Positions 56,056 through 61,488 of a stretch of 64,000 nt of DNA are shown one piece after another (the stretch's first letter is position 1; every line of letters starts with the position of its first letter). The position numbers were made by a program, and so were the translations under genes. The stretch comes from Polaromonas sp. AER18D-145. Lineage in GTDB: Bacteria > Pseudomonadota > Gammaproteobacteria > Burkholderiales > Burkholderiaceae_C. The stretch lies in contig NZ_NBZV01000034.1 of NCBI RefSeq assembly GCF_002379095.1, forward strand, positions 1-64,000, given 5' to 3'. The notes under the pieces were generated by a model. The model did no database searches and had not been told where the DNA came from. It was given only the letters and a program-made list of their open reading frames with translations.

Positions 56056-56368
56056 GGATAGGTCGCTTCCATCAAAATATGCTGATTTGGGACACTATAA
56101 AAAATCCTAACTCTGATATATCCCGCAAAACTGCGGAATAACATGGCGCCTTGTCAGATAACATGGCACAGAAAAATCGAAAAAGATGCTTGTAGTCATG
56201 GAATTAGCTTGATCGACTGCATGTTTACACAGGAAGATTGAATCTGACAAAGTCGCCGTCACGATTTCAGTTCAAGGTGTGCCATTCTCAGGCAACTGCC
56301 GCGTTTAGGCCAGCTCTGCGGTCACACCCTTGCTCGGGGACTCGCGCCGCCTGACTACACTGGTGCAG
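56056..56368. promoter_or_regulatory. AT-rich gap with palindrome and direct repeats
   Basis: 313 bases without a gene. Contains CCGCA-AAAC-TGCGG (56123-56136) and two direct copies of ATAACATGGC (56138-56147 and 56158-56167), 20 bases apart. This is either the promoter/operator of the cassette gene or a recombination site. Confidence 0.45.
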
Positions 56369-57109
56369 ATGAGCACCTCTCCACCACCACCCCGCGTGCG
56401 AGACCGCCTGGCTGCCTATTTCCGCAGTGGCGATGCCATGCGCAGCCGCAGCGTGAGTGATGTCGTGCTGTCGGGCACGGTTGACGTGCCTGCGCCTCCT
56501 GCCAGGCTGGTGGCCGACTGGGAAAGGGATATCTTGCTGCACCTGGAACTGGAGCCCGGCGACGTCGAGGCCTTGCCTTTGGTGCGAGCGCGTGCGCGCT
56601 GGCCGGACTACCGGCGCTGCGTGCAGGCGGTGTCGGACTGGGTACACACGCTGGGCCTGCAGGAGGTGCTGGCTTCTTCTGAGGTCGCCCTGATGGCCTG
56701 CCGCGGCGCGAGGTACCACCACGACGGCGCGCAGTATGGCGGCGCGGCCTTCTGCAATCTCTTTCTGAGCGAGGACAAGGGGCTGGACCTGCATTTTCCG
56801 GCAACAGGTTTTCGCATTCCCCTGCGCCGGGGCACGGCGGTGGTTTTCGATACCGGTCAGCCGCATGCCGTGATCGAGCGCCGCGGCCCCGGCTTTGATG
56901 CCGCCGATTTCCCAGCTGGGCAGGACTGCAGCCTGGTTTTTCTGAGCTGGGAGCTGCCCATGGAGAACACCGCTGTCGGGCAGGCATTGGGGATCCGCTT
57001 CGACACCGACCCTTCGACTGCCCTGCTGCTGGACGATGAGCAGGTCTGGCTGAACGGCGGCCCGGCCAGTGTGTGCCCGGCGTCCGGTCGGTGGTGCCAG
57101 GCAGACTGA
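56369..57109 (+). CDS. 2-oxoglutarate/Fe(II) oxygenase-like protein
   Basis: 246 residues. A His-X-Asp motif in RYHHDGAQYGG and a distal His followed by Arg in GQPHAVIERR fit the HXD...H iron site and 2OG-binding Arg of small prolyl-hydroxylase-like oxygenases; beta-strands lie between (AAFCNLFLSEDKGLDLHF). Family assignment is by pattern only. ATG 56369 is the first start before the Pro-rich N-terminus; the frame is open 13 codons further. Target unknown. It stands alone between the cassette gene and a REP cluster. Confidence 0.6.
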   Translation: MSTSPPPPRVRDRLAAYFRSGDAMRSRSVSDVVLSGTVDVPAPPARLVADWERDILLHLELEPGDVEALPLVRARARWPDYRRCVQAVSDWVHTLGLQEVLASSEVALMACRGARYHHDGAQYGGAAFCNLFLSEDKGLDLHFPATGFRIPLRRGTAVVFDTGQPHAVIERRGPGFDAADFPAGQDCSLVFLSWELPMENTAVGQALGIRFDTDPSTALLLDDEQVWLNGGPASVCPASGRWCQAD

Positions 57110-57329: not shown

Positions 57330-57572
57330 TCAATGATTGCCCATTTTTCCCTGGAGCACGGCCACCAGATGGCCCTTGGCCTCGGCCAGCTGTGCCTTGT
57401 CGCTGTCGTGCACCTTTCGGAAAAATGCGGCGCATTCGGCGGAGCCGGCCTGCTCGGCATCCTTGATGTACTGGTCGTAGGCCATGAGCGCTTGCGCCTT
57501 GTTCTGGATCAGCGTGATCCAGTCATATTCCAAGTTGCTGATGGGGTGGCGGTCGGTGGATTGCTCTTGCAT
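57330..57572 (-). CDS. Small helical protein
   Basis: 80 residues. AGGAG about 5 bases before ATG 57572 and normal coding bias support a real gene. Sequence is helical with EYDWITLIQNKAQALMAYDQY and KVHDSDKAQLAEAKGHL, a pattern like one half of a four-helix (ferritin-like) bundle, but no metal ligands can be assigned. Lies 113 bases downstream of the start side of the hydroxylase fusion gene's 3' end on the same strand. Function unknown. Confidence 0.6.
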   Translation of the reverse strand: MQEQSTDRHPISNLEYDWITLIQNKAQALMAYDQYIKDAEQAGSAECAAFFRKVHDSDKAQLAEAKGHLVAVLQGKMGNH

Positions 57573-57685: not shown

Positions 57686-59410
57686 TCAGCTCGTTCGCTG
57701 CCCTGAAGTGGCGGGCCGCGCGTTGTGCACGATCAGGAGCTGCGCGATGTAGTAGGTGCCCAGCACCCACAGCTGTGCCATGGGCAGGGGCTGGGCGAAC
57801 TTGTTGGTTGCCAGCAGCGCGTCACTGAGCATGAAAAAGCCGGCACCGATGGCCACGCCCAGCGATGCACGGTCACGCAGCACCGTGGCCCGGCCGATCG
57901 CCTGCGCGGCCATCAATGCAATCACGATCACGTAGGCGGCCACGGCAAAACGCAGCACCGGGTTGAGCCCGTTGAGCAGGAAGGCGTACATCAGCGCACC
58001 GACGCCCAAGGTGGCGGCCAGCGCGCGCCGGCTTGGAAACCAGGGCTGGCCCTGCTTGAACAGGGCGATGTAAAACAGGTGTGCGATCAGGAAAGACAGC
58101 AGACCGGGGATGAAGAAGCCCGGAAATATCAGAAAGCAGTCACCAGCCAGTGAAAAGGCCAGCCCCGCCAGAAGATATATATCAAATCTGCCTGAAACCC
58201 TTGTGGAATAAGCGCGAGTAGCTACAAAAACAAGAGCAAAACCAAGCGCCAGCGGCTTGAACACGCGGTGCAGTTCCACCAGTCCCAAGGTGCTGGTTGC
58301 CGTTGCCAGTGCCGCGGCCTCGATCAGCAGCACCTCGGTCATCGTCAGGCGGCCCTGCAGCGCAGCGCCCACGGCCCAGAGCCCGGTGGCCAGCACCCCC
58401 AGCCAGATCGCCGAGTGCGAGGCCGGCAGGCTGTCGGCGTACCAGAGGAACAGGGCGACGCCCTGCAACAGCAGGACAAACTGCACGGCGCCGAACCACA
58501 TCAGGGGGCGGCTCATGGTCGGGTGGTAACGCTGCAGCCGCGTGATGTCAAAAGGCGGTTTGGGAAAACGCGCGCTCACGTCAGCCGGGCGCCAACCGGG
58601 CGGCTTGAACCAGATGCGGAGCTTGTCGCCCCAGTTCCTGGCGTGCCAGGCGTCTTTGGCGAGGGCCCAGTACACCTCGGCGTTGGACCACAGCGGGTCC
58701 CAGCTGTTGAGCGGGCTGCGTGTGCCGTAAATACATTTCTCGTCTTCCTCGCGGAAGCTGCCGAAGAGCCTGTCCCAGACGATCAGGATGCCGCCGTAGT
58801 TCCTGTCGACATAGTTGTCGTTGACCGCGTGGTGCACCCGGTGGTTGGACGGCGAGCAGAACCAGCGGTCGAACCAGCCGAGCTTGGGCACGTGTTCGGT
58901 GTGCACCCAGAACTGGTAGAGCAGGTCGATCAGCACGACCACGCCGAAGACCAGCGGCGGCACGCCGGCAATCGCCATCGGCACGTAGAAAATCCAGCCG
59001 AGCAGGGCGCCGCTGCTGGTCTGGCGCAGCGCCGTGGACAGGTTGTAGTCCTGGCTCTGGTGGTGCACCACATGCGCGGCCCAGAAGACCGCGCTTTCAT
59101 GGCCGGCGCGGTGCAGCCAGTAGTAGCAGAAGTCGTAGAAGACCAGGGCGATCAGCCAGCCGTACCAGGTGGTCCAGAAGGCTTCGTCGGGAAACAGCGC
59201 CACCGACGAATAGATGGCGGTGTAGATGCCGATGCGGAACAGCCGCGTGAACACCGCGCTGATCTGGCTCAGCATGCCCAGGCTGATGCTGTTGATCGCG
59301 TCGCTCAGGCGGTAGGTGTTGCGGCCCTTCGCATAGCCCCAGGCGAACTCGATCGCGATCAGCAGGAAAAAAACCGGGGTGGCGAGGACGATGATCTGGC
59401 TTGGGGTCAT
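57686..59410 (-). CDS. Fatty acid hydroxylase (sterol desaturase/alkylglycerol monooxygenase-like) fused to a YhhN lysoplasmalogenase-like domain
   Basis: 574 residues, integral membrane protein. Residues 1-300: di-iron hydroxylase of the sterol desaturase family with His boxes HRAGH (100-104), HVVHH (113-117), H170/H173 and HRVHH (190-194), followed by helices to about 375. Residues about 385-563: YhhN (TMEM86) domain with the two conserved acidic motifs GD (Asp424) and SD (Asp530). Alkylglycerol monooxygenase cleaves ether lipids by O2 oxidation, and TMEM86B/YhhN cleaves the vinyl-ether bond of lysoplasmalogens, so both halves point to ether-lipid turnover. That joint role is inference; the hydroxylase could also act on other lipids. 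A family E repeat sits in frame at the junction (about 393-411). Confidence 0.82.
   Translation of the reverse strand: MTPSQIIVLATPVFFLLIAIEFAWGYAKGRNTYRLSDAINSISLGMLSQISAVFTRLFRIGIYTAIYSSVALFPDEAFWTTWYGWLIALVFYDFCYYWLHRAGHESAVFWAAHVVHHQSQDYNLSTALRQTSSGALLGWIFYVPMAIAGVPPLVFGVVVLIDLLYQFWVHTEHVPKLGWFDRWFCSPSNHRVHHAVNDNYVDRNYGGILIVWDRLFGSFREEDEKCIYGTRSPLNSWDPLWSNAEVYWALAKDAWHARNWGDKLRIWFKPPGWRPADVSARFPKPPFDITRLQRYHPTMSRPLMWFGAVQFVLLLQGVALFLWYADSLPASHSAIWLGVLATGLWAVGAALQGRLTMTEVLLIEAAALATATSTLGLVELHRVFKPLALGFALVFVATRAYSTRVSGRFDIYLLAGLAFSLAGDCFLIFPGFFIPGLLSFLIAHLFYIALFKQGQPWFPSRRALAATLGVGALMYAFLLNGLNPVLRFAVAAYVIVIALMAAQAIGRATVLRDRASLGVAIGAGFFMLSDALLATNKFAQPLPMAQLWVLGTYYIAQLLIVHNARPATSGQRTS
58177..58232 (-). 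repeat. Family E short repeat inside the hydroxylase-YhhN gene
   Basis: On the reverse strand TTTTTGTAGCTACTCGCGCTTATTCC, then AAGGGTTTCAGGCAGATTTGATAT, a good match to the family pattern. Read in frame at the start of the YhhN domain. Confidence 0.65.
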
Positions 59411-59685
59411 CCTGCCATTTTGTCGCAGCGCAGGTCAAAGCGCCTCTGGCAACAACCCTGATAACGGGCTTAGCCAAACCGTACTCTTTGCAGTCTCTTG
59501 CCCAGCCTGCAAGGCAGGACCGACAGTGAGACCCCCAGCGGTTTCGTTACGGACAAACTGCTCTTCGCGGTAATCTATTGGCCATACAGAAAAACTTCAG
59601 CCCGCCATATTCAATTCAACGCCGGTCACGTTACATTCCACGTAAGCATCCGGCCAAGTGCTGTGGAGTGGGAAAATAGACATAC
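59411..59685. other. Divergent gap between the fusion gene and the AT-rich gene
   Basis: 275 bases; nothing recognised except a short AT-richer stretch before 59686. Holds the promoters of both divergent genes by position. Confidence 0.3.
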
Positions 59686-60285
59686 ATGACAATCGAACGC
59701 AGTACTTTCGCGGGGATGACCGATTACACGGGCGTCTCGCTGGCTGATATCTTGATGCATTTACGCGACTGGGAGCGAAACACCAGTCAGGCTGCGGCCA
59801 ACTTGCGGGCTCATTCGATTCGCGTTGAGGCAGAAAAAGAGCGCCTGCAAAATCCTCGAGCCGTTCTCGCCTTCTGTGCGAAGTTTTCCGAGCTGTTCGG
59901 CAGATACGCGGCAGATCTTAAGAGATTGGTTTCCGAACTACCCAGCGGAGTTCGCGATGCTCATGTGAAGATTGTGCGGCAGCTCTATGACAGTGCAAAG
60001 CATGAAGACGACTCAATCCTCCGGTTTAGGAACGACTACGTTTATGGGGCGTTGAAGGACGAATCTTTGCGCCACTTCTTGGAGGACATCTACACTGATG
60101 CTCGCGAAGTTATGGTGGATTTTCAAGACCTTTCTAACCTCGCACCGCGGCTAGAAACATTTGTTGGAAGCGAACCGCCTCGAGAGGTGTTGACGGATTT
60201 TCATCTGAAGCCAAATGTATTTGGTTTGGGATGGAACATAAACAGAACGCTTGCAAGAATCAACAGATGGTGGAGAAATCGGTGA
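59686..60285 (+). CDS. Hypothetical protein, possible integron cassette gene
   Basis: 199 residues, soluble, mainly helical (LADILMHLRDWERNTSQAAANL onwards), with a basic C-terminus ending RINRWWRNR. No family recognised. Codon use includes many A/T-ending codons unlike the neighbours, a sign of transfer. A doubtful attC lies directly after the stop. Confidence 0.6.
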   Translation: MTIERSTFAGMTDYTGVSLADILMHLRDWERNTSQAAANLRAHSIRVEAEKERLQNPRAVLAFCAKFSELFGRYAADLKRLVSELPSGVRDAHVKIVRQLYDSAKHEDDSILRFRNDYVYGALKDESLRHFLEDIYTDAREVMVDFQDLSNLAPRLETFVGSEPPREVLTDFHLKPNVFGLGWNINRTLARINRWWRNR

Positions 60286-60288
60286 CGC

Positions 60289-60350
60289 TCTCTAACAAGT
60301 CCATCAAATCCATTCCCGTGTAGCAGCTTAGTCAGGGCCGACGTTGGGTT
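60289..60350 (+). other. Possible degenerate attC site
   Basis: TCTAACAAGTCC begins 4 bases after the stop of the AT-rich gene, and CCGACGTTGGGT ends the site with a GTTRRRY core; lengths suit a short attC. The arms pair poorly by eye, so this is weaker than the site at 55163. Confidence 0.35.
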
Positions 60351-60360
60351 TCCTGTTTAC

Positions 60361-61488
60361 TCAGGTCAACGCACCTCTGGCATCCACCTTAATGATCTGC
60401 TCGACCTTGCCATGTTCCAGGCCGCCACGCACGCCCAGCAGGTGCTCGTGCAGGTTGACGGTCGGGTCGCAGTGGCCGGGGATCAGCCACACCGTGTCGC
60501 CCAGCGCCGGCAGCACCGCGCCGCGCAGGATGCCGTGTTCATCGCCGCCGTTGGCGTAGTCCAGTGCCAGGCCGTGCACCGCCGGCAGGCCGGAGTCGAT
60601 GGCGTGGCTTTTGTGTCCGGCATCCACCACCGCGTGGCTGGCGCAGACGCTCATGACCTGGCTTTTGACAAACAGCGCGTGTTCGAAGGGCGGTTGCGCC
60701 GGGTCGCGCTCGTTGTCGGCGTAGTCGCTGTCCATGAACAGGTAGGAGCCCGCCTGCAACTCGCCGTACACGCCGCTGGCGGTTTCCAGCGCAAAGGTGC
60801 CGGTGCCTGCGCCGGTGACCAGCGGTACCGCGTGGCCGGCCGCCTGCAGCGCGGCCCGGGTGGTCTGCACATGGGTGATCACCTGCGCAATCGCGGCCTG
60901 CCGCTCTGCCACGGTGCGCAAATGCTGGGCACGACCGTGGTAGGCCTGCAGGCCGCCAAACTGCAGCGCCGGGTGCAGAGCCATCTCATTGGCCAGTGCG
61001 ACGGCGGGCGCGCCTGGCGCCAGGCCGCAGCGGCCATGGCCGACGTCGATTTCGATGAAGACGCGGATGGCCGCATGCTGGCCGTGCGCGGCCTGGGCCA
61101 GCCGGCGCAGGCCTTCGAGGCTGTCGACCGCGATGGCCAGCTGGCCGCCCAGCGCCTGCAGCTCCCTGGCGACCGCCATCACGCGCTTGAGCTTGAAGGG
61201 CGAGACCACCTCGTTGCTGATGTAGATGTTGTTCACGCCCAGCGCCGCCAGCGCTTCGGCTTCCGAGGTTTTCTGGACGCAGACGCCGACCGCGCCGCGG
61301 GCCATCTGCAGCCTGGCCAGGGTGGCGCTTTTGTGCATCTTGGCGTGTGGCCGCAGCATGACGCCGTGCTGCGCCGCGAACGCCGCCATGCGGTCCAGGT
61401 TGCGCTCCATCGCGTCGAGGTCGATCACCAGCGCGGGGGTGTCGATGGCCGCGGCAGGGCGGCCCAGCAGGTCAGACAGCAGGTGCAT
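60361..61488 (-). CDS. D-threonine aldolase-like PLP enzyme (DSD1 family)
   Basis: 375 residues, fold type III (alanine racemase N-terminal) barrel. PLP Lys in RPHAKMHKS (Lys50) and the C-terminal metal site GHCDPTVN are hallmarks of metal-dependent D-threonine/D-3-hydroxyaspartate aldolases and D-serine dehydratase. Substrate is a D-3-hydroxy amino acid. Its ATG shares a base with the stop of the phosphatase gene upstream (TGATG), so the two are co-translated. Confidence 0.9.
   Translation of the reverse strand: MHLLSDLLGRPAAAIDTPALVIDLDAMERNLDRMAAFAAQHGVMLRPHAKMHKSATLARLQMARGAVGVCVQKTSEAEALAALGVNNIYISNEVVSPFKLKRVMAVARELQALGGQLAIAVDSLEGLRRLAQAAHGQHAAIRVFIEIDVGHGRCGLAPGAPAVALANEMALHPALQFGGLQAYHGRAQHLRTVAERQAAIAQVITHVQTTRAALQAAGHAVPLVTGAGTGTFALETASGVYGELQAGSYLFMDSDYADNERDPAQPPFEHALFVKSQVMSVCASHAVVDAGHKSHAIDSGLPAVHGLALDYANGGDEHGILRGAVLPALGDTVWLIPGHCDPTVNLHEHLLGVRGGLEHGKVEQIIKVDARGALT

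Follow-up and report, generated by a model that had tools for sequence, protein, structure and literature searches.

The fusion gene and its surroundings

The window, by which we mean the whole 64,000-nucleotide stretch of DNA analysed here, carries on its minus strand a gene for a protein in which an alkylglycerol monooxygenase (AGMO)-like di-iron hydroxylase is joined to a YhhN domain. The features of this gene and its upstream neighbour are as follows.

57686..59410, minus strand: gene for the 574-aa fusion of an AGMO-like di-iron hydroxylase with YhhN (open reading frame, ATG start, Pfam; also encoded by the best 80 among 294 related contigs)
58757..59158, minus strand: FA_hydroxylase domain (residues 85-218), containing the His boxes and remaining essential AGMO residues (PF04116, 6.6e-30; residues in 81/81)
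59099..59113, minus strand: His box 1, H100 and H104, then E105 (motif positions, alignment)
59060..59074, minus strand: His box 2, H113, H116 and H117 (motif positions, alignment)
58829..58843, minus strand: His box 3, H190, H193 and H194 (motif positions, alignment)
58343..58510, minus strand: two predicted membrane helices, residues 301-356, at the place of AGMO TM6-7 (model helices 301-327 and 330-351)
57722..58342, minus strand: YhhN domain, eight predicted helices, residues 357-563 (PF07947, 8.4e-43; model; residues in 81/81)
60361..61488, minus strand: PLP enzyme, the upstream neighbour (Ala_racemase_N plus D-ser_dehydrat; Pfam, synteny)

A first-pass annotation of this DNA had described a single unbroken 574-residue frame holding both a hydroxylase and a YhhN domain, and had proposed a domain search as a check. 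The minus-strand open reading frame confirms this, with both families over cut-off in the one frame: FA_hydroxylase (PF04116) scores 104.7 bits against a cut-off of 31 (6.6e-30, residues 85-218), and YhhN (PF07947) scores 146.6 bits against a gathering cut-off of 25.6 (8.4e-43, residues 381-562). The list of histidines and the motif contexts likewise place the His boxes at 100-104, 113-117 and 190-194, and Asp424 and Asp530, exactly where they had been claimed. The genome as a whole has two FA_hydroxylase matches, of which the fusion is one, and no YhhN match besides it.

A contig scan confirmed 294 relatives, of which the best 80 were kept; all 80 encode the same fusion, and addition of the window's own protein gave a set of 81. 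Many of them come from Polaromonas, Ramlibacter, Variovorax, Acidovorax and Hydrogenophaga, with the nearest matches in Polaromonas. Since the 80 are the closest relatives, residue counts over this set describe the fusion group and not both families at large. The 81 aligned fusions are single frames of 559-621 aa with zero internal stops, and each contains both domains, which excludes the frame error joining two genes that the first-pass annotation had listed for checking. In comparisons with five close relatives, residues 1-300 show a dN/dS of 0.07-0.14 and residues 357-563 one of 0.16-0.27; the short stretch between the halves is looser (0.09-0.65). With an open fusion in all 81 aligned proteins and in 48 of the 299 genomes of a family sample (29 genera), and with low dN/dS in both halves, the idea that a frame error, an assembly join or chance neighbours were read as a single gene is so improbable that we rule it out. 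A plasmid search returned 126 matching records, in each of which no more than 80% of the query was covered, and hence no fusion on a plasmid.

In many relatives the fusion gene comes after ttcA, a lipoprotein-like gene, a phosphatase-like gene and the PLP enzyme (these names are labels, the PLP enzyme alone being Pfam-checked), and the genes upstream in synteny give no pointer to lipids. Among the six nearest relatives, the PLP gene ends about 20 bases from the fusion in L004 and L006-L009 and about 1,050 bases from it in L005; in the window the distance is about 930-950 bases. The corresponding gap in the window (59431-60393) contains a 199-aa plus-strand frame (59686-60285) with no Pfam match up to E 0.1, and on its flanks the tail of the PLP gene recurs as an imperfect direct repeat of 32 bases. 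Beside the fusion lies a frame of about 80 aa (57333-57572), 93-98% identical in seven relatives (L004-L009, L046), for which no family scored over cut-off. A 259-aa frame at 56330-57109, also with no Pfam family over cut-off, is 83-87% identical in six close relatives and resembles, by eye alone, a small iron-dependent oxygenase.

Conserved residues of the two halves

In human AGMO, nine histidines and six further residues (Q162, D233, N235, Y236, W243 and D244) are essential, according to the available text of PMC7911779. Mapping by the spacing published there, and not via alignment to the human sequence, located counterparts of all 15 residues, with almost unchanged spacing, in 81/81 fusions; the six non-histidine counterparts, in the same order, are Q130, D202, N204, Y205, W212 and D213. 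E105, which aligns with human E137, is kept in 80 of the 81 fusions (R in one) and is variable outside them. The same AGMO-essential residues are also found in a broader clade of hydroxylases of roughly 300 residues (10/10 examined; the misaligned L205 was disregarded in this comparison), so their presence is no proof of ether-lipid activity.

The AGMO C-terminal domain PF24858 (AGMP_C) is absent from the 15 families matched by any of the 81 fusions up to E 1. Weak matches to it, the best at 4e-6, were found up to the same E in 14 of the 34 members of a second alignment (A2), in which the window protein is the only fusion. The other members of A2 are 33 of 39 unfused longer-type proteins, those left out being L098 (no start), L120, L124 and L125 (stops), and L136 and L138 (choice). 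The fit to the ornithine-lipid hydroxylase model NF052566 is poor (56.4 bits against a cut-off of 475), and NCBIfam gives one other weak match. At the position of human Q162, L202, the sole relative over the NF052566 cut-off, has F, and the genome's own paralogue has N; Q130 separates the hydroxylase half from the ornithine-lipid type. The AGMO-like plus YhhN naming in the first-pass annotation stands on the residues conserved in 81/81, on the weak AGMP_C matches of the unfused relatives and on the poor OlsE fit, and is qualified by the lack of AGMP_C in the fusions. The only pterin-related gene seen in the genome encodes a pterin carbinolamine dehydratase.

For the YhhN half, the available part of PMC11994398 reports eight positions tested in human TMEM86A and TMEM86B, among which G81 was not crucial in TMEM86A. 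The counterparts of these eight are K385, G423, D424, H444, G522, S529, D530 and Y553, present in 81/81 fusions, with H444 two residues off the position predicted from TMEM86A spacing. Because the YhhN proteins of human, Legionella and M. tuberculosis are lysoplasmalogenases (available text of PMC11994398 and PMC9052158), the C-terminal half is, by analogy, probably one as well.

Domain boundary and membrane topology

Three separate YhhN genes align to the fusion from residues 357, 360 and 361, and a second set of four from residues 357-379. On the other side, the matches of unfused hydroxylases in the family sample end at query residue 346-358 in 48 of 67 cases, earlier in 9 and later in 10. 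The predicted structure has helices at 301-327 and 330-351, followed by eight helices between 357 and 563. The alignments of separate genes and the model together indicate that the YhhN part really begins near residue 357 rather than at the Pfam start; the domain that had been placed after residue 385 is present, and its beginning is moved forward. Given the end points of the hydroxylases, the start points of the separate YhhN proteins and the model helices, the most fitting description of the protein is an AGMO-like unit that runs through its seventh helix and then continues, in place of AGMO's last helices, into an entire YhhN unit.

The model is poor in its hydroxylase part (pLDDT below 50 for residues 172-231), and given the low confidence of this core, inter-site distances were left unused. 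Averaged over the 81 proteins, Lys plus Arg per loop is 1.0-4.0 on the His-box side, rising to 18.5 in the long His-box-3 region, and 0.0-1.0 on the opposite side, a clean alternation. From these loop charges and the model we infer that the His boxes are cytosolic. The same evidence predicts that the eight-helix YhhN half has both ends in the cytosol, like the M. tuberculosis protein, which has an N-in, C-in topology in the accessible text of PMC9052158. On this topology, the key YhhN residues would sit in the half of their helices nearer the periplasm.

Neither the protein nor its alignment had a match among PDB sequences up to E 1, and Foldseek gave no match at E 0.001 or better, with the hydroxylase half barely covered. 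A second fold comparison aligned the YhhN half to GPCR-like and rhodopsin-like bundles with a best Z of 12.2 over 166 residues, which is below the level that the tool rates as safe for helical bundles and thus consistent with the rhodopsin-like fold proposed for YhhN (PMC9052158, available text), and no more.

Distribution, proposed role and known relatives

The two families were followed in an order sample of 399 genomes (YhhN over cut-off, hydroxylase at E 1e-20 or better) and a phylum sample of 299 genomes (hydroxylase at E 1e-30 or better). The hydroxylase is found in 18 of 20 YhhN genomes of the order sample (the exceptions being G372 and G608) versus 55/399 overall, and in 48 of 67 YhhN genomes of the phylum sample versus 67/299 overall; Fisher values of 3e-15 and 1e-24 for this co-occurrence ignore shared ancestry. 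Seen from the hydroxylase side, YhhN is missing in 37 of 55 order-sample genomes; in the phylum sample, 19/67 YhhN genomes have no hydroxylase and 19/67 hydroxylase genomes no YhhN. At a strict threshold, close hydroxylases share a genome with YhhN in 14/20 (phylum sample) and 14/31 (order sample) cases.

Six of the 18 order-sample genomes with both are fusions in the window's own family, and G651 carries a distant fusion (33% identity). In four more, belonging to four different other families, the two genes are adjacent on one strand and occur in both orders: YhhN comes first in G568 (gap 2 bases), G310 (gap 1) and G606 (gap 36), and the hydroxylase comes first in G549, where an uncertain YhhN start leaves no gap figure. 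The remaining seven have the genes on different contigs (G255, G316, G358, G400, G564) or far apart on one contig (G246, G593). Together, the fusion, the tight gene pairs and the co-occurrence support a functional link between the two activities.

The G651 fusion (L159:2091-3827) reads, by eye, GG where the GD motif is expected and HD in place of SD, and its hydroxylase has N at the D202 position. Given the changes at these two motifs, its YhhN half may be inactive.

Within the family sample, an unfused hydroxylase (E 1e-77) was counted in 67 genomes and a YhhN-side match without attached hydroxylase (E 1e-30) in 12; G880 falls in both groups, and G703, with a partial match to residues 149-491 in a 407-aa frame, in neither. 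G246, the one of the 67 examined for a YhhN gene elsewhere in its genome, has one. At the place of the fusion, beside the same PLP-enzyme or phosphatase-like gene, there are several loci of both one-half kinds, such as the hydroxylase alone in L179, L183 and L198 and YhhN alone in L164, L165 and L172, which indicates that the halves are not strictly interdependent. L164, L165, L166 and L169 have YhhN-only genes of 289-307 aa with two AGMO-type helices still ahead of YhhN, and no further hydroxylase part within the 7-8 kb examined. Because these helices are retained and the rest of the hydroxylase is absent, the best reading is that these loci lost the hydroxylase after fusion, the two helices being an apparent scar. 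The hydroxylase-only G834 runs to the end of its contig and may be a cut fusion.

Two quick trees, both with long branches, bear on the history of the fusion. In the hydroxylase tree (28 of 92 fusions, 51 unfused proteins), three label changes are needed, the unfused L177 and L178 stand among the fusions, and the fusions' 46-row group also takes in 16 unfused proteins from other families, so a single origin of the fusion is possible but not shown. In the YhhN tree, 28 of 92 fusions and 12 YhhN-only proteins of the same family form one group (support 95), separate from 14 further YhhN proteins.

Both AGMO and YhhN count as ether-lipid families, which in animals break different kinds of ether bonds, and the AGMO and lysoplasmalogenase reactions both end in a similar hemiacetal and release a fatty aldehyde. 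This shared chemistry makes joint removal of ether lysolipids the simplest reading, and we tentatively propose, as possible rather than probable, a membrane enzyme with two activities, both of which cleave ether lipids with release of fatty aldehydes. The protein would lie in the inner membrane, where the AGMO-like di-iron domain at its N-terminus would use O2 and a reduced pterin to hydroxylate the first carbon of an alkyl-ether chain, and the hemiacetal so formed would collapse, releasing a fatty aldehyde and leaving a glycerol derivative. At the C-terminal end, the YhhN domain would hydrate the vinyl ether of a lysoplasmalogen, which likewise leads through such a hemiacetal to a fatty aldehyde. 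The joined protein could handle both saturated and vinyl ethers, its two coordinated activities serving one pathway that scavenges or detoxifies ether lysolipids from other organisms. Since the sites are predicted to face opposite membrane sides, such coordination seems more likely than a channel passing one intermediate. Obligate channelling is set back by these seemingly opposite-facing sites and by the loss of either half in some lineages. For the single-chain ether-lipid enzyme suggested in the first-pass annotation, the functional link is thus supported by the fusion, the gene pairs and the co-occurrence; the ether-lipid degradation and the scavenging of plasmalogens we infer. The aerobic plasmalogen desaturase family PF10520 has no match in the genome (the model matched 0 controls and 2 of 150 sampled phylum genomes), which fits an external substrate without demonstrating one.

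The main rival, which we consider somewhat unlikely, keeps the YhhN half as a lysoplasmalogenase and has the hydroxylase half modify a different lipid or metabolite (membrane lipid, hopanoid or secondary metabolite), the fusion serving joint placement or regulation. It draws on PRUB680, an AGMO-like bacterial enzyme of Pseudoalteromonas rubra that cyclises prodigiosin and so has a substrate other than an ether lipid (available text of PMC6667630 and PMC7484904), on the spread of the AGMO-essential residues through the wider clade, on the lineages that lost one half and on the majority of order-sample hydroxylase genomes (37 of 55) that lack YhhN. However, the neighbouring pairs in four other families, in both orders, point to a shared pathway, as do the strong co-occurrence seen from the YhhN side and the ether-lipid character of both families.

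A sequential scheme appears distinctly improbable: the hydroxylase, or desaturase, would make a labile ether or hemiacetal from one non-plasmalogen bacterial lipid, and YhhN would break it. The fusion, gene pairs and co-occurrence would fit it as well, as would the undetected PF10520 desaturase and the many YhhN-bearing bacteria that do not encode plasmalogen synthesis (PMC9052158, available text), but the apparent placement of the two sites on opposite membrane faces speaks against it, as do loci with YhhN only or the hydroxylase only. A broader proposal, to which we give little credence, casts the hydroxylase as YhhN's general partner in metabolism across many proteobacteria, producing a bacterial ether or hemiacetal lipid, not host plasmalogen, that YhhN breaks. 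If true, this would account for the retention of YhhN in bacteria that do not produce plasmalogens, with the fusion as a mark left by a two-step lipid pathway not yet described.

The bifunctional ether-lipid enzyme remains our preferred reading, and its conserved natural fusion ties two ether-cleaving families together functionally. Bacterial YhhN is widespread, yet many of its owners encode no plasmalogen synthesis (PMC9052158, available text), and the fusion offers a compact test protein for the roles of bacterial YhhN and AGMO-like enzymes. The open literature searched contained no description of a hydroxylase-YhhN fusion, although the architecture may well stand in Pfam or InterPro tables, and the accessible parts of the AGMO literature searched reported no measured AGMO activity of a bacterial protein. 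We know of no measured activity for any such fusion.

Among known systems, PRUB680 is AGMO-like too, a likeness drawn from its published description alone; it acts on a pigment, and the available description makes no mention of a YhhN domain. OlsE (NF052566) shares the broad hydroxylase superfamily, but the fusion falls far short of its model, and L202, which exceeds the cut-off, differs at the Q130 and D202 positions. AGMO (TMEM195) has in common with the fusion the FA_hydroxylase domain, the nine histidines and six other essential residues, and two helices at the TM6-7 place. It differs in having its last two helices (TM8-9 in the available text of PMC7911779) where the fusion has a complete YhhN; the fusion, moreover, has no AGMP_C match and is bacterial, its pterin use and activity being putative. 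The lysoplasmalogenases (YhhN; TMEM86A/B, Legionella, M. tuberculosis) share PF07947, the eight predicted helices, the N-in/C-in pattern and the eight tested residues; whereas the characterised members are not described as fused in the available sources, the domain here forms the C-terminal half of a hydroxylase.
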